NCBI RefSeq assembly: GCF_003184905.1
Contig: NZ_KZ821210.1
Location: forward strand, 1-48,415
Reading direction: 5' to 3'
From: Bacillus sp. CGMCC 1.16541
Lineage (GTDB): Bacteria; Bacillota; Bacilli; Bacillales; Bacillaceae_H
DNA length: 48,415 bases
Under the pieces are notes generated by a model. The model was given only the letters and a program-made list of their open reading frames with translations. It had not been told where the DNA came from and ran no database searches. Both the position numbers and the translations under genes were made by a program. Positions 4,396-37,103 of this stretch are shown one piece after another (positions within the stretch are counted from its first letter, which is position 1; every line of letters starts with the position of its first letter).

Positions 4396-5730
4396 ATGAA
4401 TCATTCAAACCAATGGTCCTCGCGATTTGGTTTTATTTTAGCATCAGCCGGAGCTGCAATCGGTCTAGGTGCAATTTGGAAGTTTCCGTATGTAACAGGA
4501 ACGAGTGGTGGTGGAGCATTCTTTTTCTTATTTATTTTGTTTACTTTATTCATTGGAATGCCACTTTTACTTGCTGAATTTGTAATTGGTCGAAGTACAG
4601 GAAAAGAAGCGATTAGTGCGTACAAAAGCATTGCTCCTAATTCGAATTGGGTATGGATTGGACGAATCGGGGTTGTAAGCTGTTTAGTACTCTTATCCTT
4701 TTATAGTGTTGTCGGTGGCTGGGTACTCGTTTACGCGTTGATGAGCTTAAGTGGTCAATTAATGGGTCAATCATATGGGCCACTCTTTGATACCGTGATT
4801 GGAAATCCTCTGATTGTGTTAAGTGCACAGGCTCTTTTTTTACTGATGACTGTATTGGTTGTCTCAAAAGGGATACAAAATGGAATTGAACGTGCTAATA
4901 AATATATGATGCCACTTTTATTTATTTCATTTTTAATTATTGTAGGCCGATCACTAACATTAGAAAATGCAACGGAAGGGTTGTTGTTTTTCTTAAAGCC
5001 GGACTTTTCAGAAGTGACAGCATCGTCTATCTTATATGCATTAGGTCAATCGTTCTTTGCATTATGTGTTGGACTTTCATGTATGGTCACATACAGCTCT
5101 TACTTAGGCAAAGAAGTTAGCTTAACAAAGTCTGCTAGTTCTATTGCATTTTTGAACTTATTTGTTTCGTTATTGGCAGGACTTGCGATTTTTCCAGCTG
5201 TGTTTTCGCTTGGATTAGAGCCAACAGAAGGACCTGGATTATTATTTGTTGTATTACCAGCGGTATTTGAGCAAATACCATTTGGAACGTTTTTTTTATC
5301 ACTGTTTTTAGTCTTGTTTTTATTCGCAACTTTAACGTCTGCTTTTTCGCTTCTTGAAATTATTGTCGCGTCATTAGCGAAAGATCAACAACATAAGCGT
5401 GTTCGTTATTCATGGTTATCAGGTGTAATGGTCTTTATTGTTGGTATTCCATCTGCATTATCATTTGGTGTGTTAGGAGACGTTTCACTTGGAGGGCGAA
5501 ATCTATTTGATGTGGCAGACTTTTTTGTAAGTAATGTGATGTTGCCACTTGGAAGTTTAGCGATTGCCATCTTTTTATCGTTTAAAATGAAAAGAGAAGT
5601 GCTTCACAACGAATTTATGGCAGGTGGAGCAATCTCAAATAAATGGTTTGAATTATGGTTACTTTTAGTGAAGTATGTTCTTCCTATTATTATTGTGATC
5701 GTCTTTATTAATTTGTTACGCTCTTATTAA
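4396..5730 (+). CDS. Neurotransmitter:sodium symporter (NSS/SNF) family transporter
   Basis: 444 residues with about 12 predicted membrane helices. The N-terminus WSSRFGFILASAGAAIGLG followed by AIWKFPY is the diagnostic unwound helix-1 region of the NSS family, where Na+ and the amino-acid substrate bind. The length matches bacterial members such as LeuT/MhsT rather than animal transporters. It probably takes up an amino acid with Na+. AAAGGGG precedes the ATG and a strong terminator follows at 5731. The particular amino acid cannot be told from sequence alone. Confidence 0.9.
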   Translation: MNHSNQWSSRFGFILASAGAAIGLGAIWKFPYVTGTSGGGAFFFLFILFTLFIGMPLLLAEFVIGRSTGKEAISAYKSIAPNSNWVWIGRIGVVSCLVLLSFYSVVGGWVLVYALMSLSGQLMGQSYGPLFDTVIGNPLIVLSAQALFLLMTVLVVSKGIQNGIERANKYMMPLLFISFLIIVGRSLTLENATEGLLFFLKPDFSEVTASSILYALGQSFFALCVGLSCMVTYSSYLGKEVSLTKSASSIAFLNLFVSLLAGLAIFPAVFSLGLEPTEGPGLLFVVLPAVFEQIPFGTFFLSLFLVLFLFATLTSAFSLLEIIVASLAKDQQHKRVRYSWLSGVMVFIVGIPSALSFGVLGDVSLGGRNLFDVADFFVSNVMLPLGSLAIAIFLSFKMKREVLHNEFMAGGAISNKWFELWLLLVKYVLPIIIVIVFINLLRSY

Positions 5731-5856: not shown

Positions 5857-6371
5857 ATGGCTGCTACCTATATAAAAGAAGAGTATCATATCTTCAGGAA
5901 ATCGTTACGCAAGTTTCTAGAAAAAGAAGCAGCGCCTTATTATGACGAGTGGGAAGAGAACCGAATGATTCCAAAAAGCTTTTGGTTGAAATTAGGAAAA
6001 GAAGGGTTTCTTTGCCCGTGGATAGATGAACGATACGGTGGTTTCAATGCCGATTTTGCTTATTCAGTTGTACTAAACGAAGAATTAGAAAGGGTAGGTT
6101 CGAGTTTAGTAGGGGTAGGGTTACATAATGACATTGTTGTTCCATATTTAGCTTCATACGGAACAGAAGAACAAAAACAAAAGTGGTTACCTAATTTTGT
6201 AAGCGGTAACATAATTACGGCGATTGCGATGACAGAACCAGGAACAGGATCAGATCTAGCCAATTTAAAAACGACAGCAGTTAAAGACGGCGACCATTAT
6301 ATTATAAACGGAGAAAATATGTAGATGTAAGTATGACAGATGCAACGTATACGTTTAACGTAGAAGTTTAA
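5857..6371 (+). pseudogene. Truncated acyl-CoA dehydrogenase
   Basis: The frame opens at ATG 5857 after AGGGAGAG and gives 155 residues, stopping at 6322-6324. It has the N-terminal helical domain of acyl-CoA dehydrogenases (FRKSLRKFLEKEAAPYYDEW) and the flavin-contact motif AMTEPGTGSDL (about 128-138), but ends right after YIING. The rest of the middle domain and the whole catalytic C-terminal domain (about 225 residues of 380) are absent. In the next frame (6318-6371), YVDVSMTDATYTFNVEV and a stop look like the tail of a different protein, suggesting an internal deletion that joined two genes. It sits directly upstream of intact thiolase and SDR genes. The product is very unlikely to be an active dehydrogenase. 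Confidence 0.85.
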
Positions 6372-9130: not shown

Positions 9131-10576
9131 CTAGAGAATGGGAGATAACAACCTTGATATCGATTCTTTGAAACGAATCAGCAATCGACGCTGCTCATAC
9201 GCTTCCTGTGTTAAAAGTGTTGAATTCTTCATGTCGTCTTCAAAAATAGTTGTAAGGTTTTTAGTCACAGTTGAGTCGTAAAGAAATGCATTGACTTCAA
9301 AATTCAAGCGAAAACTTCTCATATCAATGTTAGCTGTTCCGACAGATGCAATTTGGCCATCGACTACAATCGTTTTAGCATGCATAAATCCTTTTTCGTA
9401 AATATAAACTTTCGCCCCAACCTTTAGTAATTCTCCAATGTGTGAATAAGTTGCCCAATACACAAACGGATGATCAGGTTTGTTCGGAATCATAATTCGA
9501 ACGTCAACACCAGAAAGTGCCGCAATCTTTAGGACATCTAATAAACTATCATCAGGAATGAAATAAGGAGTTTGAATGTATACATAGCTCTTAGCCGCTA
9601 AAATCATTTTCATGTATCCATTTTTAATTTGTTCTTCCTCAGAATCAGGACCGCTTGATACAATTTGCATGCCTACTTTGCCAATCGATGAAATGGTTGG
9701 ATAATAGTCTTGATGGTATTCAATTAAGGAAGCAGAGGCGTGGTTCCAATCGAGTATAAAGCGCGATTGAATATAATGAACAGCCATTCCAGTCACTTTT
9801 AAATGCGTATCACGCCAATATCCAAACTTTGGGTTTAATCCTAAATATTCATCTCCAATGTTGAAGCCTCCGATATATCCGATTTTTCCATCGATAATAA
9901 CGAGCTTACGATGGTTGCGGTAATTAATACGTAAATTAAAAAGCGGAAACTTAGAAGGAAAGAAAGGCGCTGCATCAACCCCAGCTTGCTTCAACTGTTT
10001 AATAAGTTTTCGCTTGAATTTTCTTGACCCCATGTCATCGTATAGTACTTTAACTTTAACACCTTCTTTTGCTTTTTGAACAAGCATATTTACAAGCCTT
10101 TTTCCTAATTCATCAGATCGAATAATATAATAGACAAGATGAATATGGTGAGTTGCTTGCTCAATATCTTGAAGGAGAGCGTTGAATTTGTCATGTCCAT
10201 CTGTGAAAATCTCTAGCTCATTATTTTGAGTGAGAACGGCTTCATTGTGAATTAAATGCATAAATACTAAGTCTCTGTATCGTTCAGCACTTTTGTTAGT
10301 AAAGGAGAATTGTTGGTTCCTTAAAAGTTCTGTTTGGGTAGAAACAGATTCACGTAATGAAAGATAACTTCTTTGATCCCATGTAAAAATTTTCTGTTTG
10401 CTTAAATTTTGACCGAAAATTAAATAAAGGATGAATCCTAAAACAGGAATAAAATAAAGAACCATAAGCCATGCCCATGTCGTACTAATACTGCGCCTTT
10501 CTAAAAAAATGAGTGTAATAGCGAGTATCATATTAAGAATAAATAAGAAAAGTAATAAAATGGTTACAACATTCAC
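9131..10576 (-). CDS. cls: Cardiolipin synthase (phospholipase D family)
   Basis: 481 residues from the chosen GTG. Two N-terminal membrane helices (FLFILNMILAITLIFL and WLMVLYFIPVLGFILYLIF) are followed by two PLD domains with HKD motifs, HRKLVIID (H222) and HAKTIVVD (H399). The enzyme joins two phosphatidylglycerols into cardiolipin at the membrane. The GTG at 10576 is preferred because AAAGGAG is 8 bases ahead and gives the usual 480-500 length; the longer frame to 10663 adds residues not typical of the family. It is monocistronic on the minus strand, divergent from the LacI gene. It could be any of several cls paralogues. Confidence 0.9.
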   Translation of the reverse strand: MNVVTILLLFLFILNMILAITLIFLERRSISTTWAWLMVLYFIPVLGFILYLIFGQNLSKQKIFTWDQRSYLSLRESVSTQTELLRNQQFSFTNKSAERYRDLVFMHLIHNEAVLTQNNELEIFTDGHDKFNALLQDIEQATHHIHLVYYIIRSDELGKRLVNMLVQKAKEGVKVKVLYDDMGSRKFKRKLIKQLKQAGVDAAPFFPSKFPLFNLRINYRNHRKLVIIDGKIGYIGGFNIGDEYLGLNPKFGYWRDTHLKVTGMAVHYIQSRFILDWNHASASLIEYHQDYYPTISSIGKVGMQIVSSGPDSEEEQIKNGYMKMILAAKSYVYIQTPYFIPDDSLLDVLKIAALSGVDVRIMIPNKPDHPFVYWATYSHIGELLKVGAKVYIYEKGFMHAKTIVVDGQIASVGTANIDMRSFRLNFEVNAFLYDSTVTKNLTTIFEDDMKNSTLLTQEAYEQRRLLIRFKESISRLLSPIL

Positions 10577-10702
10577 AAAATAAACTCCTTTGACGAAAAA
10601 CTGAACTGCTTCTTTATTATAATGCAGGTTTATTTCATAAGCCAAAATTTGGACCGATTTCACGATGAATATAAAAAATATCGAGAACGCTTACATTTTT
10701 TG

Positions 10703-10731
10703 TTGACCAATGAATCATAATTATATATAAT
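10703..10731 (+). promoter_or_regulatory. SigA-type promoter of lacI-family gene
   Basis: TTGACC (10703-10708) and TATAAT (10726-10731) are separated by 17 bp, close to the SigA consensus. The operator at 10745 lies just past the expected start site. Confidence 0.75.
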
Positions 10732-10744
10732 CAACTTGTATTAA

Positions 10745-10758
10745 GTTAACCGTTTAAC
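10745..10758 (+). promoter_or_regulatory. Probable LacI-family operator 1
   Basis: GTTAACCGTTTAAC is an inverted repeat with GTTAA/TTAAC arms around a central CpG-containing core, as is usual for LacI-family sites. It shares 12 of 14 bases with a site at 11817-11830. Its position just downstream of the promoter suggests autoregulation by roadblock. Confidence 0.65.
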
Positions 10759-10768
10759 CGGAGGAGAC

Positions 10769-11800
10769 ATGAATCAAAAAATAACAATCCGTGATGTAGC
10801 AAAATACGCTGGTGTGTCACCTGCGACCGTTTCATACGTCTTAAATGGCGTAAAAAAAGTATCAGATGAAACCAAATCTCGAGTTTTGGAAGCGGTTAAA
10901 GAACTGAATTATCAGCCGAATTTTACAGCGATTAGTTTATCAAAGCGAAAATCAAATATGATTGGTGTTATGCTTCCGTTAGTAGACGATTCACTTGCTA
11001 CAATTTTTAAGGAAAATCACTATTATAGTGAAGTGATTAGTGGAATTGAATACATATCTCGTAAAAATGGATATGATATTTTAATTTCAGGCGCAGGAAA
11101 TCCAGAAGACTGTAAAAACTGGATCACAAAACGTAACTTAGACGGACTGCTATTTTTAGGAACGTTTTCGGAGAATTTATATAAGGAAATGAAAGCGTTA
11201 CCTACACCGATCGTATTAATTGACACGTATGAAGAGTACGCAAAACATTATCACAACATTCATGTTGATGATGAATTAGGCGGCTACTTAGCGACAAAGC
11301 ATTTGCTTCAATTAGGACATGAATCAATTGCATTCGTTGCTCATCGCTTAACAAATAGTCCTGTTGATGCAAAACGCTTTACAGGCTACAAAAAAGCATT
11401 GGCAGAAGCAAATAAGTCAATAAACAAGGAATTAATATTTGAAGGGCATGACAGCTCGTTTGAAAATGGCTATAAGATGGGGGAAAAGGTGTTAGCACTT
11501 AAGGATACGTTAACAGCTGTGTTTGCTACATCTGACATTTTAGCCCTCGGAATCATCAAGGCGTTAAACGAGCACGGAAAACAAGTGCCGCATGATTATT
11601 CAATTGTGGGATTCGATGATTTAACAATCAGTAGTTACTCAACGCCAAGTTTAACAACGGTAAGACAAGATGTTTTTAAAAAAGGTGTTGTATCAGCTGA
11701 AACATTAATTCAAGCTATCGAAGGAAAAATGCAAACGTTAGCACGAATCAACTTACCAGTTGAAATCGTAAAAAGGGACTCAACATCCAATCGTGGATGA
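10769..11800 (+). CDS. LacI-family transcriptional regulator
   Basis: 343 residues. The N-terminal HTH (TIRDVAKYAGVSPATVSYVL, about 5-24) is followed by the hinge region and a periplasmic-binding-like sugar domain (about 60-335), which has GFDDL-ISSYSTPSLTTVRQ near residues 284-304. It binds DNA as a dimer and releases or tightens on a sugar ligand. It heads the ThuA/Gfo operon and shares an operator with it, so it is the probable local regulator, with an intermediate or substrate of the operon as effector (inference). The ATG follows GGAGGAG closely. No dedicated sugar transporter is seen next to it. Confidence 0.9.
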   Translation: MNQKITIRDVAKYAGVSPATVSYVLNGVKKVSDETKSRVLEAVKELNYQPNFTAISLSKRKSNMIGVMLPLVDDSLATIFKENHYYSEVISGIEYISRKNGYDILISGAGNPEDCKNWITKRNLDGLLFLGTFSENLYKEMKALPTPIVLIDTYEEYAKHYHNIHVDDELGGYLATKHLLQLGHESIAFVAHRLTNSPVDAKRFTGYKKALAEANKSINKELIFEGHDSSFENGYKMGEKVLALKDTLTAVFATSDILALGIIKALNEHGKQVPHDYSIVGFDDLTISSYSTPSLTTVRQDVFKKGVVSAETLIQAIEGKMQTLARINLPVEIVKRDSTSNRG

Positions 11801-11816
11801 CTCTCTTTTACGAGAG

Positions 11817-11830
11817 GTTAACCGGTTCAC
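11817..11830 (+). promoter_or_regulatory. Probable LacI-family operator 2, upstream of thuA-like operon
   Basis: GTTAACCGGTTCAC matches operator 1 at 12 of 14 positions. A weak promoter may overlap it: TTCACT (11826-11831), 17 bp, TAGATT (11849-11854), each 4 of 6 to consensus. A repressor here would cover the -35 region. Confidence 0.55.
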
Positions 11831-11968
11831 TCAAATAATTATTAAGACTAGATTGTGATTTTAATAACGACTCCTTTCGATAGAGTTATTGTTTGTAAGT
11901 TTAATCTGCTCTCACACAGCAAATCGATGAAAAGCGGTCTTTACAATAAAAAAGGATAGGTGACAACC

Positions 11969-12694
11969 ATGGTAAAAGTAACAGTATGGAATGAAAATCG
12001 ACATGAGCAAAAGAATCCAGTTGTAAGAGAGATTTATCCTGAAGGTATTCACGGTGCGATTGCACAGTTTTTAACAGAAGAAGGTTTTGACGCAAAAACA
12101 GCTACGTTAGATGAACCAGAACATGGTTTAACAGACGATGTACTAGCAGAGACAGATGTTCTTGTATGGTGGGGACATCTAGCGCACGATGAAGTGCAAG
12201 ATGAAATCGTTCAAAAAGTACAACAACGTGTTCTTGATGGGATGGGTTTAATTGTTCTTCACTCAGGTCACTTTTCAAAAATCTTCAAAACATTAATGGG
12301 AACAAGTTGTGATTTAAAATGGCGCGAAGCAGATGAAAAAGAGCGCATTTGGGTCGTTGATCCAAGTCATCCAATTGCAGAAGGCATTGGAGAATATATC
12401 GAGTTAGAAAAAGAAGAGATGTATGGAGAGCACTTCGATATCCCTGCTCCAGATGAGCTTGTTTTTACAAGTTGGTTTGAAGGTGGAGAAATCTTCCGCA
12501 GTGGTTGCACATATAAACGTGGGAACGGAAAAGTATTCTATTTCCGTCCAGGTCATGAGACGTATCCAACGTACCACAATAAAGAAGTACAACGTGTCAT
12601 TATTAACAGTGTAAAGTGGGCACAGCCAGTTAATCGTAAACGCCCAGTATACGGAAATGCACAACCATTAGAAAAAATTGCAGTAAAAAACTAA
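11969..12694 (+). CDS. ThuA-domain protein (glycoside/trehalose utilization type)
   Basis: 241 residues, a single ThuA domain with a class I glutamine amidotransferase-like fold: [11 protein letters not shown] at the N-terminus, [24 protein letters not shown] and the C-terminal [16 protein letters not shown]. ThuA proteins work with Gfo/Idh/MocA dehydrogenases in oxidative breakdown of disaccharides through 3-keto sugars. The chemistry of the ThuA step is less certain. ATG 11969 is chosen over GTG 11960 because the AGG of the ribosome site sits 8 bases before it and homologues begin at this point. It is the first gene of a four-gene operon behind a LacI operator. Confidence 0.85.
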
Positions 12695-12701
12695 TGCAGT
12701 G

Positions 12702-12733
12702 AATGAGTGTAAGAAGCCGAGCTTGCACTCATT
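12702..12733 (+). other. Intra-operon stem-loop between thuA-like and first Gfo/Idh gene
   Basis: AATGAGTGTAAG and CTTGCACTCATT form a 12-bp stem (one G-U) with an 8-base loop. Only TTTCT follows, so it is a weak or partial terminator, or an mRNA processing/stability element that lowers downstream expression. Confidence 0.6.
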
Positions 12734-12772
12734 TCTACCACATGTTGAACAAAAGAAAAGGGAGAGGTTTTT

Positions 12773-13798
12773 ATGACAAGATTAAAAGTTGGAGTAATTG
12801 GTTGCGGAAGTATTGCCCAATATCGTCATTTACCAGAATACAAAGCAAATAAAAACGTAGAGATTGTAGCGGTTTGTGACCTTAACGAAGCACGTGTGAA
12901 TGAAATTGCTGAACAATATGAAGCGAAAGCGTATACAAGCTATGAGGAATTATTAGCAAGTGGTGAAGTGGACGTCGTGAGTGTATGTACACCGAACTAT
13001 TTACACGCACCAATCTCAATTGCCGCGTTAGAAGCAGGAATCCACGTATTATGTGAAAAGCCAATGGCGACATCTCAAGAAGAAGCTGATGCCATGATTG
13101 AAGCAGCAAAGAAAAGTGGTAAAAAGCTAATGATTGCACATAACCAACGTTTTGTTTCTTCACACCAAAAAGCTCGTCAATTAATTGAAAGTGGAGAAAT
13201 CGGAAAGTTATACAGCTTCCGTACAGCATTCGGTCATCCTGGACCAGAAGGCTGGAGTGTGGATGGAAAAGACAGCTGGTTCTTTCGTAAAGAGCAAGCA
13301 TTTATTGGAGCAATGGGTGACTTAGGTGTTCATAAAACAGACTTACTTCGTTATTTATTAGGAGAAGAAATTACTGAAGTAGGTGCATTCGTTGAAACAA
13401 GTGCAAAAGATTTTGCAGACGTTGATGACAATGCGGTATGCGTTTTAAAAACGGAAAGCGGAATTGTCGGAACATTAGCTGCAAGCTGGGCATACACGGC
13501 AAAAGAGGACAATTCAACGATTATCTATGGAGAAAAAGCCATTCTTCGTCTTGAAGATCATCCGACGTATTCATTAGTTGTTCAATATGCAACTGGTGAA
13601 GTTGTAAACTATGAGCTTGGAAAGATTCAATCGAATGATGAAGGGGGGCAAAGTAGTTCTCAAGTTGTTAATCACTTTGTCGAATCTGTTTTAACAGGTA
13701 AAGAACCGTTAATTACAGGTGAAGAAGGTATGAAATCACTGGCTGTTATTTTAGCAGCATTAAAATCAAGCGACACAAAACAAATTACACGTGTATAA
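12773..13798 (+). CDS. Gfo/Idh/MocA-family oxidoreductase 1
   Basis: 341 residues. The N-terminal Rossmann domain has GVIGCGSIAQYRH (7-19) and acidic D36 ending strand 2 (NAD preference). The family motif CEKPMA has EKP at 95-97, the Lys being the catalytic base. The C-terminal alpha/beta domain (about 125-341) contains GDLGVHKTDLLRYLLG, where the family's GxxxDxGxH region contributes a catalytic His. It likely oxidises or reduces a sugar hydroxyl. It follows thuA and precedes a second paralogue 17 bp later. It is only distantly related to that second gene, so they probably act on different substrates or steps. Confidence 0.9.
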   Translation: MTRLKVGVIGCGSIAQYRHLPEYKANKNVEIVAVCDLNEARVNEIAEQYEAKAYTSYEELLASGEVDVVSVCTPNYLHAPISIAALEAGIHVLCEKPMATSQEEADAMIEAAKKSGKKLMIAHNQRFVSSHQKARQLIESGEIGKLYSFRTAFGHPGPEGWSVDGKDSWFFRKEQAFIGAMGDLGVHKTDLLRYLLGEEITEVGAFVETSAKDFADVDDNAVCVLKTESGIVGTLAASWAYTAKEDNSTIIYGEKAILRLEDHPTYSLVVQYATGEVVNYELGKIQSNDEGGQSSSQVVNHFVESVLTGKEPLITGEEGMKSLAVILAALKSSDTKQITRV

Positions 13799-13815
13799 GT
13801 AATGGAGGTGACTTC

Positions 13816-14850
13816 ATGAGTAAACTTCGTATTGGGATCATTGGGGTTGGTGGCATTGCGACAGGCCGCCATATTCCAGCGTTTCAACGTTTAGATGCGT
13901 TTTGCGCAATTACAGCTGTTAGTGATGTAGATGTTGAGCGAGCAAAAGAAGTAGCAGCAGCTAATCAAATTGAACATGTTTTTCAAGACTACCATGATTT
14001 ATTTAAAGAAGTAGACGCTGTTTGTATTTGTACACCAAATAAATTTCATGCAGAAATCACGATTGCAGCATTTGAAGCAGGTGTTCATGTTCTTTGTGAA
14101 AAGCCAATGGCATTGTCAACGGATGAATGTGAAGCGATGATTACTGCTTCAAAGAAAGCGAATAAAGTGTTAGCTATTGCGTATCACTATCGTTTTATGA
14201 AAGAAGCGCAAGCAGCGAAAAAGATGATAGAAGACATCGGAGCACCATTAGTAACACGTGTCCAAGCGCTGCGTCGTCGTAAAGTACCAGGGTGGGGGGT
14301 ATTTACAAACAAATCTCTTCAAGGTGGCGGTAGCCTAATCGATTATGGCTGTCATTTGCTAGATTTAGCGATTTGGTTAATGGGGAATCCAAAACACGTT
14401 GAAGTAAGTGGCAGTACGTATAACGTGTTAAGTAAAACACCAAATCAAGTGAATCAATGGGGAGAGTTTGATCATGCAACGTTTGATGTTGATGATCATG
14501 TAACCGCTTATATTAAGTTTGAAGGTGGCGCATCACTGCTACTAGAAACATCGTGGGCAGCAAATATAAAAGATGACGCCGAGCATGTCAGCATTTCTGG
14601 TACAGAAGGCGGAATTAGTGTTTTTCCATTCGAGTTATACACAACGAAAAACGGCATGCTTTTAAATAGTGAAGCAGCGTGGATTCAAGGGGAAGATGAT
14701 CCAGGATTACCACAGGCGAAAAACTTTATCGATGCATGCTTAGGTAGAGAAGAGCTTGTTGTCAAACCAGAAGAAGCGCTTCAAGTATCTAACATCATTG
14801 ATCAGATCTATGAAAAAAGTGAAACAGTAGAAACCATCGCGTTAAACTGA
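13816..14850 (+). CDS. Gfo/Idh/MocA-family oxidoreductase 2
   Basis: 344 residues. Rossmann motif GIIGVGGIATGRH (7-19), D37-D39 after strand 2 (NAD preference), CEKPMAL with EKP at 95-97, and GGGSLIDYGCHLLDLAIWLMG in the C-terminal domain carrying the conserved Asp and His of the family. GGAGGTG precedes the ATG. Paired Gfo/Idh/MocA dehydrogenases with a ThuA protein and a xylose-isomerase-like TIM barrel are typical of oxidative glycoside routes, where one enzyme makes the 3-keto sugar and the other reduces the released ketose. Which does what here cannot be told. Confidence 0.9.
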   Translation: MSKLRIGIIGVGGIATGRHIPAFQRLDAFCAITAVSDVDVERAKEVAAANQIEHVFQDYHDLFKEVDAVCICTPNKFHAEITIAAFEAGVHVLCEKPMALSTDECEAMITASKKANKVLAIAYHYRFMKEAQAAKKMIEDIGAPLVTRVQALRRRKVPGWGVFTNKSLQGGGSLIDYGCHLLDLAIWLMGNPKHVEVSGSTYNVLSKTPNQVNQWGEFDHATFDVDDHVTAYIKFEGGASLLLETSWAANIKDDAEHVSISGTEGGISVFPFELYTTKNGMLLNSEAAWIQGEDDPGLPQAKNFIDACLGREELVVKPEEALQVSNIIDQIYEKSETVETIALN

Positions 14851-14864
14851 AGGGAGAGGCCGAG

Positions 14865-15833
14865 ATGAAGTTAGGAGTATTCACAGTTTTATTTGCAGAT
14901 AAGTCGTTTGAAGAAATGCTAGATAAAGTAAAAGCGGCAGGGTTACACGCAGTCGAAATTGGAACAGGTTGTTACCCAGGGAATAATCACTGTGATTTAG
15001 ATTTATTATTAGAAGATGAAACGGCACGTCAACAGTATGTTCAAAAAGTAAAAGAGCGTGACTTAATTATTAGTGCGTTTAGTTGTCACGGAAATCCTAT
15101 TTCACCAGAAAAAGAATTCGCCAAGCAATCTCATGAAACATTATTAAAAACCATTAAACTAGCATCACTACTAGATGTACCAGTTGTTAACTGCTTTTCA
15201 GGAACAGCTGGCGATCATGAAGACGCAAAATATCCAAACTGGCCGGTTACACCTTGGCCAAACGAATACGGCGATGTGCTAAAGTGGCAATGGGAAGAAA
15301 AGCTCATTCCTTATTGGAAAGAAGTAGGAGCTTATGCGAAAGAACATAATGTAAAAATCGGTCTTGAGCTTCACGGAGGATTCCTTGTTCATACGCCATA
15401 TACGTTATTAAAGCTACGTGAAGAAACGTGTGACGCAATTGGTGCAAACTTAGATCCAAGTCACTTATGGTGGCAAGGAATTGATCCTGTAGCGGCAATT
15501 AAGATTTTAGCAAAAGAAAATGCAATTCACCATTTCCATGCAAAAGATACGTATCTTGATCAAGAAAACATTAACATGTATGGGTTAACAGACATGCAAC
15601 CATATGGCAGTGTTCAAACTAGAGCGTGGACGTTCCGCTCAGTTGGATGTGGTCATAGCTTAACGGAATGGTCCGATATGATGAGTGCACTGCGTACATA
15701 TGGATATGATTATGTAGTGAGCATTGAACATGAAGATCCAATTATGTCGATTGAAGAAGGATTTAAGCGTGCTGTAACAAATCTTCAATCTGTTTTAATT
15801 GAAGAATCACCTTCACAAATGTGGTGGGTATAA
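14865..15833 (+). CDS. Sugar phosphate isomerase/epimerase-like TIM-barrel protein
   Basis: 322 residues of the AP-endonuclease-2/xylose-isomerase-like TIM-barrel family. Putative metal ligands are seen as E in KIGLELHGGF, D and H in NLDPSHLWWQG, H in HHFHAKDTYLD, and E in VSIEHEDP. This arrangement is shared by IolE/IolI-type and 3-keto-sugar isomerase or lyase proteins. The long insert PNWPVTPWPNEYGDVLKWQW (about 125-144) is typical of the Firmicute subgroup next to Gfo/Idh/MocA genes. It is the last gene of the operon and ends at a strong terminator. The likely role is isomerisation or hydrolytic release in the keto-sugar pathway (inference). Confidence 0.85.
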   Translation: MKLGVFTVLFADKSFEEMLDKVKAAGLHAVEIGTGCYPGNNHCDLDLLLEDETARQQYVQKVKERDLIISAFSCHGNPISPEKEFAKQSHETLLKTIKLASLLDVPVVNCFSGTAGDHEDAKYPNWPVTPWPNEYGDVLKWQWEEKLIPYWKEVGAYAKEHNVKIGLELHGGFLVHTPYTLLKLREETCDAIGANLDPSHLWWQGIDPVAAIKILAKENAIHHFHAKDTYLDQENINMYGLTDMQPYGSVQTRAWTFRSVGCGHSLTEWSDMMSALRTYGYDYVVSIEHEDPIMSIEEGFKRAVTNLQSVLIEESPSQMWWV

Positions 15834-15837
15834 AAAG

Positions 15838-15867
15838 AAGTTCAGGGTTTGCTCCCTGAACTTTTTT
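15838..15867 (+). terminator. Rho-independent terminator of ThuA/Gfo operon
   Basis: AGTTCAGGG and CCCTGAACT arms with a 6-base loop, then T6. Confidence 0.92.
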
Positions 15868-35699: not shown

Positions 35700-37103
35700 G
35701 TGCCAAAAGAAAGATTAGAAGAAAAGCAACTTATTCACCCACATGAAGGTCGTTATTATGCATTTGTACTTGTTATCAGTATTTTAACCTATATAGCCTT
35801 TATCGTATCAGTCGTTGGAATCTTTATCATTGGAGCCATCATTTTATTATCGCTTTTTGCTCATGCGTTAATGATTGGTTACATTCGAATGAATGCAGTT
35901 CAGTTAAATGAAAAGCAGTTTCCAATTATCTATGAGAAAACGAAGCAATTGTGTAGCGAGATGGAATTAAACCGAGTACCTGATGTGTATGTGATGCAGT
36001 CAGGTGGAACGTTAAATGCATTTGCAACGAGGTTTTTTGGTCGTAACATGGTTGTGATATACTCGGAGATTTTTGAATTAATTGAACAAGGTAATGAGGA
36101 TGAGCTGTCGTTTGTCATTGCACATGAACTAGCTCATATTAAGCGAAATCATATTTCAAAATCAATGTTTATTTTGCCTGCAATGTGGATGCCTGGTATT
36201 GGTGAGCTGTATTTACGAGCTTGCGAATATACGTGTGATCGCTATGCGGCCTATTACACAAATAATCCAGAAGCTGCGAAAAATAGTTTGACCATTCTTA
36301 GTGTTGGAAAAGTGCTTTATAAGCAAGTGAGTCGCGATGAGTTTTTAAGACAAGCACAGCGTGAAAAAGGTTTTTTTGTTTGGTTAAGTGAATTTTTATC
36401 GACACACCCTCCATTACCAAAGCGAATCTATGAAGTTGGAGCATTCATGGGTGAGCCTGAGGAAGTAATCTTTGAAACAAAACGTTCGAAAAAAGTTTGG
36501 TTGTTTGTTCCAGTCACTCTTCTTTTATTTAGTGGTTTTATAGGCGGAATGGTCTTTTCGATGAACCATTTTTTTGACGAAACAGTAACAGATTTCGATG
36601 AGAGTGCTTATGGAGAGCCATCACCGGTAACGCAAGCGATTATTACGGATGACATGGACGAGTTACAAAAGTTAATCGAAGAAGGTTACGCAGTCGATGA
36701 GTTAGACGATCAAGGTTATACACCATTGCATTGGGCTGCGAAGTCTGACAATGTAGACGCAGCTACGTTACTATTAAATGAAGGTGTAGATGTTAATATA
36801 GAGGACGGCGACCTATTTTTAACACCTCTGATGAGTGCAGCTGAGTTAGGAAACACGAAAGTTCTTTCATTCTTACTTGATGAAGGTGCAGATGTAACTT
36901 ATGAAGACAGTGAGGGTGATACAGCCTTAACTTATGCTGTTTATAGTGATAATGTGGGGGCTGTTCGCGTATTAATAGAAGCAGGAGCAGACCCAAATGC
37001 GCCAGATTACTATGGTAGTACACCGCTTATGAAGGCCATTGAAAATGGAAATGCAGAAATAGTGAATGAATTAAAACAAGCAGCAAAGAAAGGAAAGGGA
37101 TAA
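35700..37103 (+). CDS. M48-family membrane protease fused to ankyrin repeats
   Basis: 467 residues. Two N-terminal membrane helices (about 20-65) are followed by an M48 metalloprotease domain: zinc motif HELAH (142-146), with the third ligand region ACEYTCDRYAAYY. A further membrane helix lies at about 262-284 (VWLFVPVTLLLFSGFIGG). The C-terminus (about 310-467) carries ankyrin repeats: DDQGYTPLHWAAKSDNVDAA, DLFLTPLMSAAELGNTKVLS, EGDTALTYAVYSDNVGAVRV, and YGSTPLMKAIENGNAEIV. The ankyrins probably choose a partner or substrate. The start is GTG 35700 with GAAGGAG upstream. The next gene starts 2 bp after the stop, so the RDD protein is a likely partner. Confidence 0.88.
   Translation: MPKERLEEKQLIHPHEGRYYAFVLVISILTYIAFIVSVVGIFIIGAIILLSLFAHALMIGYIRMNAVQLNEKQFPIIYEKTKQLCSEMELNRVPDVYVMQSGGTLNAFATRFFGRNMVVIYSEIFELIEQGNEDELSFVIAHELAHIKRNHISKSMFILPAMWMPGIGELYLRACEYTCDRYAAYYTNNPEAAKNSLTILSVGKVLYKQVSRDEFLRQAQREKGFFVWLSEFLSTHPPLPKRIYEVGAFMGEPEEVIFETKRSKKVWLFVPVTLLLFSGFIGGMVFSMNHFFDETVTDFDESAYGEPSPVTQAIITDDMDELQKLIEEGYAVDELDDQGYTPLHWAAKSDNVDAATLLLNEGVDVNIEDGDLFLTPLMSAAELGNTKVLSFLLDEGADVTYEDSEGDTALTYAVYSDNVGAVRVLIEAGADPNAPDYYGSTPLMKAIENGNAEIVNELKQAAKKGKG

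Follow-up and report, generated by a model that had tools for sequence, protein, structure and literature searches.

Maltose use is normally thought of as hydrolysis or phosphorolysis. Oxidative routes to glycoside breakdown are also described, and we compare with them a five-gene unit, lacI-thuA-gfo1-gfo2-TIM, on contig NZ_KZ821210.1 of Bacillus sp. CGMCC 1.16541 (the whole stretch analysed, 48,415 nucleotides, is called the window below; sources with PMC numbers are cited from excerpts of their text). From its sequence, this operon probably splits sugars such as maltose through prior oxidation and not by plain hydrolysis. The order oxidation, elimination, hydration and reduction has been shown for levoglucosan (PMC7676230) and is supported for Agrobacterium tumefaciens (PMC10628242). 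In Paenibacillus sp. JDR-2, thuA and thuB are placed under maltose utilisation, the adjacent ATP-binding cassette (ABC) genes rise about 10-fold on maltose, and 3-keto-maltose is proposed (PMC4765114). Whether the thuAB genes act simultaneously or sequentially is unresolved according to PMC7404187, and one pathway set omitted, for lack of knowledge, the breakdown of cellobiose, maltose and sucrose through 3-ketoglycosides (PMC9007349).

All five genes lie on the plus strand between positions 10703 and 15867, and a Pfam scan of the window's open reading frames (ORFs) matches them to LacI/Peripla_BP_3, ThuA, GFO_IDH_MocA (twice) and AP_endonuc_2. Gene content, operators and hairpin are read directly from the sequence:

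10703..10731, plus strand: sigma-A type promoter-like pair, TTGACC-17-TATAAT, 11 of 12 consensus matches; heads the lacI-led unit
10745..10758, no strand: operator 1, GTTAACCGTTTAAC, exact; position the same in 9 of 9 loci with a LacI relative and in 12 genomes
10769..11800, plus strand: LacI-family regulator, 343 amino acids (aa); relatives 50-69% identical stand before thuA in 9 of 80 loci
11817..11830, no strand: operator 2, GTTAACCGGTTCAC, exact; between lacI and thuA
11969..12694, plus strand: ThuA (PF06283), 241 aa; 140 bits in Pfam, 417 bits against 1t0b
12773..13798, plus strand: Gfo1, Gfo/Idh/MocA oxidoreductase; EKP and D183/H187 positions conserved
13816..14850, plus strand: Gfo2, Gfo/Idh/MocA oxidoreductase closest to DgpA (glycoside 3-dehydrogenase type)
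14865..15833, plus strand: xylose-isomerase-like TIM barrel, putative Mn-dependent 2-hydroxy-3-keto-glucal hydratase or eliminase
15834..15867, plus strand: intrinsic terminator closing the unit; 14-bp hairpin, T tail, -19.8 kcal/mol, z -6.2

The operon shares with thuEFGKAB of Sinorhizobium and Agrobacterium a ThuA orthologue (62% identical in Ensifer), a Gfo partner, possibly of the ThuB type, and, in the Ensifer locus inspected, a LacI-family gene. The adjoining Ensifer Gfo, however, is only 29% identical to Gfo1 and 28% to Gfo2, and in that unannotated locus there is one Gfo and a TIM relative was not found. Excerpted accounts place ABC genes inside thuEFGKAB, whereas the window operon has two Gfo genes and a TIM gene and its ABC genes are unlinked. 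By sequence, no other part is as well conserved across phyla as ThuA. Genes 5587-5591 of Paenibacillus sp. JDR-2 likewise set ThuA and a Gfo beside a sugar ABC system, with maltose as the inferred substrate; there the ABC genes are adjacent, a second Gfo or a TIM protein is not mentioned in the excerpts, and the mechanism is proposed only, as it is here (PMC4765114). The lgdA-lgdB1-lgdB2-lgdC genes of Bacillus smithii S-2701M resemble the operon in their two oxidoreductases, isomerase-type proteins, nearby LacI gene and redox-neutral four-step logic. They differ in having two isomerase-type proteins, an eliminase and a hydratase, against the single TIM gene of the window, and ThuA is not described in the excerpts (PMC7676230). 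The Agrobacterium GlycDH-AtOGE-AtHYD-Gfo operon has a Gfo reductase and contributes AtHYD (8ro4), which with SCO6571 is what the window's TIM protein resembles among solved structures; oxidation there is by GlycDH, assayed with ferricyanide (PMC10628242). Finally, Gfo2 is nearest to DgpA of the DgpA/DgpBC system for puerarin C-deglycosylation, although the window operon lacks a DgpB/C pair and has ThuA. The oxidative 3-keto-glycoside enzyme types named in the original prediction are thus borne out by the nearest relatives of Gfo2, TIM and ThuA. Its description of the operon as an undescribed module is only partly right, for thuAB, lgd and the Agrobacterium OGE/HYD systems are described and a maltose thuAB is proposed in Paenibacillus (PMC4765114); the four-enzyme ThuA/Gfo1/Gfo2/TIM cassette was not found as a subject in the titles or abstract openings of the papers that literature searches listed.

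We consider it rather likely that the unit is an inducible, self-regulated operon through which alpha-glucosidic, maltose-like disaccharides would be broken down oxidatively, with uptake encoded elsewhere. Its control is the firmest element: to judge from comparative sequence, LacI almost certainly controls the whole lacI-thuA-gfo1-gfo2-TIM unit. The two operators have 12 of 14 bases in common and each differs from the palindrome GTTAACCGGTTAAC at one position. If one mismatch is allowed, the palindrome occurs in the window only at these two places and in none of 100 shuffles; a looser pattern with two mismatches occurs 8 times against 4.05 expected, so that the window alone is unconvincing, and we accept the operators as real because of their phylogenetic footprint and not because of the looser count. 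Operator 1 is a CG-centred palindrome, GTTAAC-CG-TTTAAC. It follows the -10 box at a distance of 13 bp and immediately precedes the ribosome-binding site of lacI; operator 2 lies 16 bp past the lacI stop.

The footprint was read in the best 80 of at least 584 ThuA relatives, fetched by ThuA similarity. A LacI relative (50-69% identity) stands directly before thuA in nine of these loci (L011, L015, L033, L034, L047, L051, L055, L066 and L073; L011 and L015 bear the record names Priestia megaterium and P. aryabhattai), which are related to each other and do not amount to nine independent events; the other 71 total 1.13 Mb. Sites with at most one mismatch number 15, distributed over all nine LacI-type loci, versus none in the 71 loci without a LacI relative; at two mismatches the counts are 17 and 5. 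The operators are conserved with orthologous LacI and, at one mismatch or fewer, absent without a LacI relative. Both (at most two mismatches) are present in eight of the nine loci, flanking lacI at a separation of 1068-1143 bp (1072 bp in the window), and the ninth, L073, has operator 1 only. All 10 genomes of the genus (G000-G009) and the family members G011 and G014 also carry both sites at lacI-thuA with at most two mismatches. TATAAT or TATACT precedes operator 1 by 12-15 bp in 11 of the 12 relatives examined, L073 being the exception. The earlier proposals of a matched pair flanking lacI, and of LacI acting through it, therefore hold, the second on the strength of conservation and not of binding.

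We infer that the five genes form one transcription unit. The promoter scan of the window lists 9 promoter-like sites against 16.4 in shuffles, fewer than by chance, and the pair at 10703-10731 is credible because its placement is conserved among relatives, the scan numbers giving no support. No second promoter for thuA is listed between lacI and thuA in that scan. The terminator scan gives 3 in the window against 3.6 expected, and the 15834-15867 hairpin is listed as terminator-like on the other strand. LacI autoregulation is presumed from the position of operator 1. On the minus strand, a promoter-like pair at 10720-10749 (10 of 12 matches) faces a divergent gene that by eye is cardiolipin-synthase-like (9131-10663); since this pair overlaps operator 1, the divergent gene might, in this species, be under the influence of LacI too.

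The scheme that we infer, which takes in repression, chemistry, substrate, the order of steps and which Gfo oxidises and which reduces, would run as follows. LacI bound to operator 1, just past its own -10 box, and to operator 2 would repress all five genes, with operator 2 as the second anchor of a loop or as a roadblock, until an effector, either a sugar or a keto-sugar, released it. Gfo1 and/or Gfo2 would then oxidise the 3-hydroxyl of the non-reducing glucose with NAD+, and the labile glycosidic bond would be cleaved, by ThuA (which we favour) or by the TIM protein. If cleavage is an elimination, the TIM protein would hydrate the resulting 2-hydroxy-3-keto-glucal. The other Gfo would reduce 3-keto-glucose to glucose, closing the redox balance, and uptake would most likely proceed through an ABC and two-component cassette on contig 19 of the genome.

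The original prediction called for a genome-wide operator search for transporter or hydrolase genes of the same regulon. We ran such a search, with the pattern read backwards as control, and saw no importer or hydrolase beside an operator in the strain's own genome, neighbours being judged by eye. With up to two mismatches the pattern occurs in 9 places and the control in 19; because the control gave more, two-mismatch sites carry no weight alone. With one mismatch, GTTAACCGGTTAAC occurs in four places. Two are the window's own, a third falls within a gene that by eye is acpS-like and was rejected as a regulon member, and the fourth is at C1:120979. This last is the sole other exact copy of operator 1 and stands 46 bp ahead of a maltose-O-acetyltransferase-like gene (288.6 bits against a cut-off of 314 for the maltose-O-acetyltransferase model), itself followed by a major facilitator superfamily (MFS) gene. 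The MFS gene was rejected as a sugar importer, since its best NCBIfam models are export and antiporter types, scored below cut-off, and its Pfam matches are MFS_1/MFS_3.

The exact copy raises an addition to our reading, one that does not exclude it: the regulon might extend to acetylation and export of sugar, as detoxification or overflow of what is not metabolised. The site recurs in G005, which of all searched genomes is the nearest relative, in front of a DUF1349 gene, the acetyltransferase gene and the MFS gene. It is found in only 2 of 10 species of the genus, and another LacI-family gene, 3.4 kb from C1:120979, may own it. With the exact match and the MFS_3 gene on one side and these two points on the other, we think such a branch rather unlikely.

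Of 61 genomes, 17 carry the exact pattern GTTAACCGKTTMAC. Counted by strand, so that a palindrome scores twice, it gives 35 matches, compared with 14 matches of the control pattern in 11 genomes. At lacI-thuA it is present throughout the genus (10 genomes) and in G011 and G014; the matches in G010, G013, G036 and G046 fall within or next to unrelated genes, and we set them aside. In G025 (L135, contig 15, 5771-8489) a LacI relative (61% identical) stands away from thuA, with one operator before its gene and two more between that gene and a gene for a MalE/GanS-like solute-binding protein, an independent hint that the regulator belongs to oligosaccharide use. Two stretches of the P. megaterium plasmid CP109764.1 (L094, 13775-14113 and 25393-25631) were also noted: a LacI 60% identical to the window's is encoded next to GMC oxidoreductase and MFS genes, with sites of the GTGAACCGGTTCAC type upstream, and four copies of GTTGACCGGTTCAC lie between a different LacI gene and a thiamine-pyrophosphate-binding-protein gene. 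At G000:C28:20842-21393, a LacI-type ligand-binding domain is interrupted by a stop, and is likely a decayed regulator gene.

The enzymes point to 3-keto-glycoside chemistry, which on sequence grounds we regard as very likely. Searched with its family profile, Gfo2 matches DgpA (7xr9) at 308 bits and DgpA1 (9m3d) at 305 bits, no others falling below E 1e-40, and as a single sequence it scores 240 bits against 7xr9. The Gfo1 profile gives DgpA 173, DgpA1 156 and glucose-fructose oxidoreductase 155 bits; both proteins keep the EKP and D-x-G-x-H motifs. The TIM protein is nearest by sequence to SCO6571 (2zds) and to the 2-hydroxy-3-keto-glucal hydratase AtHYD (8ro4). Its profile matches 8ro4 at E 1e-7 and the metal-ligand and catalytic positions, E168, H170, D197, H225 and E288, are retained, residue roles being transferred by alignment to 8ro4 and from the pattern in PMC10628242. 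A fold search with its model ranks 2zds first and 8ro4 fifth (template-modelling (TM) scores 0.67-0.68 for 8ro4), followed at lower ranks by 3-keto lyases, among them the 3-keto-beta-glucopyranoside lyase 8tct, by YcjR and by DgpB-C 7drd.

The substrate is the less settled part, and whether it is an alpha-glucoside of maltose-like type we judge to be about evenly poised. ThuA, Gfo1, Gfo2 and TIM occur together in 37 of the 80 loci, with two more having a further Gfo; Gfo1, TIM and another Gfo are found in 11, Gfo1 alone in 7 and none of these nearby in 10, and the remaining 13 hold other mixtures, one of them (L065) without a called ThuA ORF. A GH13 gene accompanies thuA in 22 of 80 loci, and a P. 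megaterium plasmid holds in a single stretch maltose ABC genes, alpha-glycosidase, LacI, ThuA, Gfo, TIM, an ABC ATPase, HPr, a ROK glucokinase and pullulanase. Beta-amylase adjoins the unlinked ABC genes in two of nine regions read (G004 and G002). These alpha-glucoside neighbours (GH13, maltose ABC, pullulanase, beta-amylase) count against the alternative that the same 3-keto chemistry serves beta-glucosides or plant O- or C-glycosides, in the manner of DgpA and AtOGE, with the TIM protein as lyase and ThuA as accessory. That alternative draws on the nearest solved relatives of Gfo2, the DgpA proteins of C-glycoside cleavage, and on the presence of AtHYD, 8tct and 7drd in the TIM fold search; moreover LgdB2, which is of isomerase type, acts in part both as an eliminase and as a hydratase (PMC7676230), so that a TIM protein could cleave unaided. 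Rhizobial and Agrobacterium thuAB, on the other hand, act on trehalose, maltitol and sucrose isomers (Ampomah 2013, by its title as cited in PMC4765114 and PMC10433430), and we find the beta-glucoside alternative improbable.

Three further loci were noted. Elsewhere on CP109764.1 (L093 13797-14133; 84225-84671) thuA and gfo1 are annotated whole, gfo2 is represented by short ORFs and TIM by a partial match, as in a decayed copy. A Listeria monocytogenes record (L148, 6167-10766) has Gfo, TIM, ThuA, TIM (76%) and Gfo consecutively, and ThuA at an identical 68.8% identity is also seen in records labelled Listeria phage, where it is possibly host DNA. In L041, a record named Sphingomonas sp. PsM26, ThuA and Gfo1 are 87% and 80% identical to the window's and of Bacillaceae type, possibly through assembly contamination.

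For an alpha-glucoside, the cleavage step is of particular interest. AtOGE cleaves 3'-keto-cellobiose and not the alpha-linked 3'-keto-maltose (PMC10628242), so thu-type operons with alpha substrates would have to rely on a different enzyme for cleavage. Hydrolases of family PF06439 (DUF1080), for example BT2157 (PMC9007349), would do the same step, but a Pfam search found no match to this family of 3-keto-disaccharide hydrolases in the window's genome, so that cleavage there needs another protein; matches above the family's cut-off occur in 12 of the 24 genomes searched, all but five of these matches lying inside open frames of at least 1,200 residues. We tentatively propose ThuA, on sequence evidence, as a candidate for the cleaving enzyme. 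It clears the PF06283 cut-off of 33.4 bits as the only ThuA match in the genome, and is 72% identical to 1t0b, a B. stearothermophilus structure released in 2004 under the title 'ThuA-like protein'; fold matches beyond 1t0b are mostly glutamine-amidotransferase-like proteins. In a 20-sequence alignment its invariant positions include H12, H28, H52, H70, H73, H98, H101, E149, E150, E154, H155, H196 and E197, H155 being F in 1t0b. ThuA and Gfo1 with nothing else of the set occur in 7 of the 80 loci, of which L071 and L086 may hold fragments of more.

A wider proposal, which we hold a shade more tentatively, is that ThuA cleaves 3-keto-alpha-glucosides and that ThuA and Gfo1 would be the smallest set able to make the cut in a widespread maltose-type pathway without hydrolysis, extended in the Bacillaceae by a DgpA-like Gfo and a keto-glucal hydratase; the genus would have split off the importer, with LacI keeping the enzymes only. 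ThuA would then be a candidate for the 'alpha-3-ketoglucosidase' of a 1970 title cited in PMC9007349. If this is true, a common Bacillaceae cassette splits alpha-glucosides by oxidation; the four enzymes are small and look soluble, which makes the reading easy to test. Arguing against ThuA as the cleaver are the 10 loci in which it has no Gfo or TIM relative nearby, the naming of the PF06439 member BT2157 as 3-ketotrehalose hydrolase (PMC9007349), and the TIM protein, which could cleave instead.

The absence of a transporter, noted in the original prediction, holds locally, but for the genome as a whole a split looks likelier than a lack: no sugar ABC or phosphotransferase system (PTS) genes were recognised by eye among the window's listed ORFs, and an unlinked ABC cassette lies on contig 19. 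A linked disaccharide ABC transporter would be expected of a thuAB pathway, yet an ABC permease was not found in any of the nine LacI-type loci. Of the 71 loci without a LacI relative, 43 have ABC permease genes no more than eight ORFs away from thuA, versus none of the nine with it (Fisher p 0.0005, kinship uncorrected), and 43 is a low count: L065 has the genes and was scored without because its ThuA ORF is uncalled, some loci are cut by contig ends, and permeases were searched by single sequences. A permease at least 55% identical to one of the strain's own genome occurs in 19 of 80 loci, reaching at least 75% in eight. In these eight, the cassette compares with the contig-19 copy at 79-84% for the permeases, 53-58% for kinase and regulator and, where matched over 70% of its length, 60-63% for the binding protein.

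The contig-19 cassette comprises a response regulator, a histidine kinase, a solute-binding protein and two permeases; no sugar enzyme was recognised, and no operator with up to two mismatches found, beside it. We tested 18 LacI-type genomes (G066, also LacI-type, was left out), of which 12, including the strain's own (G000), have its permease at 83-100% identity. In the 15 with this permease, its gene and thuA are on different contigs or separated by at least 650 kb, though in G002 both are near contig ends and may be linked; in all four comparison genomes, chosen as ABC-linked, the permease gene is about 4-6 kb from thuA. Kinase and regulator genes accompany five of the nine unlinked ABC regions read. 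From these sequence comparisons, the simplest account of uptake is a split module with its own two-component control, and the contig-19 ABC system is a possible importer for the operon, its prospects falling slightly short of even. A shared maltodextrin uptake system may serve instead of a dedicated importer: the genome encodes eight SBP_bac_1 proteins, two of them in further ABC loci that are maltodextrin-like by eye and by similarity.

Of the three guesses first offered for the missing transporter, separate or shared uptake is therefore best supported, by the 43 ABC-linked loci and their contig-19 relative, and an intracellular or hydrolytically released substrate less so. Intracellular recycling, in which an alpha-glucoside made or freed in the cell needs no importer, would fit the lack of importer or hydrolase genes beside operators and the LacI-type genomes without a close relative of the orphan ABC system (see below). 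The permeases near thuA in loci without a LacI relative, and the binding-protein gene adjoining the LacI relative and operators of G025, speak for import, and we hold recycling to be more improbable than a beta-glucoside substrate.

Several observations weigh against an oxidative maltose-type operon served by a split importer. The contig-19-type permease is only 60-64% identical in three of the 18 LacI-type genomes, a further three lack a close relative of it (best 34, 36 and 51%), and the transporters adjoining thuA are of more than one type. The link to maltose is drawn by analogy from neighbour genes and a distant Paenibacillus, and no beta-amylase was found in the strain's own genome or in its nearest relative, G005. 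Two GH13 neighbours that we checked pass the alpha,alpha-phosphotrehalase subfamily model (576.9 and 660.7 bits, cut-off 535) and fail the equivalog of the same family (628.8 and 714.9 bits, cut-off 799), so they support alpha-glucosides generally and not maltose. The TIM fold matches also include many sugar epimerases and IolE proteins, and the model is modest (predicted local distance difference test (pLDDT) 69), which makes these matches supporting only; the fold alone does not fix the reaction. No operon protein reaches the NCBIfam equivalog cut-off of a named 3-dehydrogenase, the BT_2158/BT_2159 glycoside 3-dehydrogenase models (cut-offs 750 and 650) giving at most 52.7 bits.

That the operon instead handles another polyol or an anhydro sugar (inositol isomers, levoglucosan, 1,5-anhydrofructose), and takes its 3-keto-disaccharide label from annotation only, is very unlikely: Gfo1 and Gfo2 do score on the inositol 2-dehydrogenase (TIGR04380) and levoglucosan dehydrogenase (NF052479) models, and in the lgd locus, too, a LacI gene and ABC genes accompany a Gfo/Idh/MocA protein and proteins of isomerase type, but the scores lie far under the cut-offs (173.8 and 111.2 of 355; 150.5 and 120.5 of 650) and lgd has two isomerase-type proteins with ThuA not described in the excerpts (PMC7676230). 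With IolE also at 36.5 bits against a cut-off of 290, we rejected filing the operon as a levoglucosan, inositol or BT_2158-type pathway on these NCBIfam scores.

Two other genes of the window were noted by eye. An acyl-CoA-dehydrogenase-like ORF at 5857-6324 has only 155 aa and looks truncated, and a 467-aa protein encoded at 35700-37103 resembles an M48-type membrane peptidase with ankyrin-like repeats after it.

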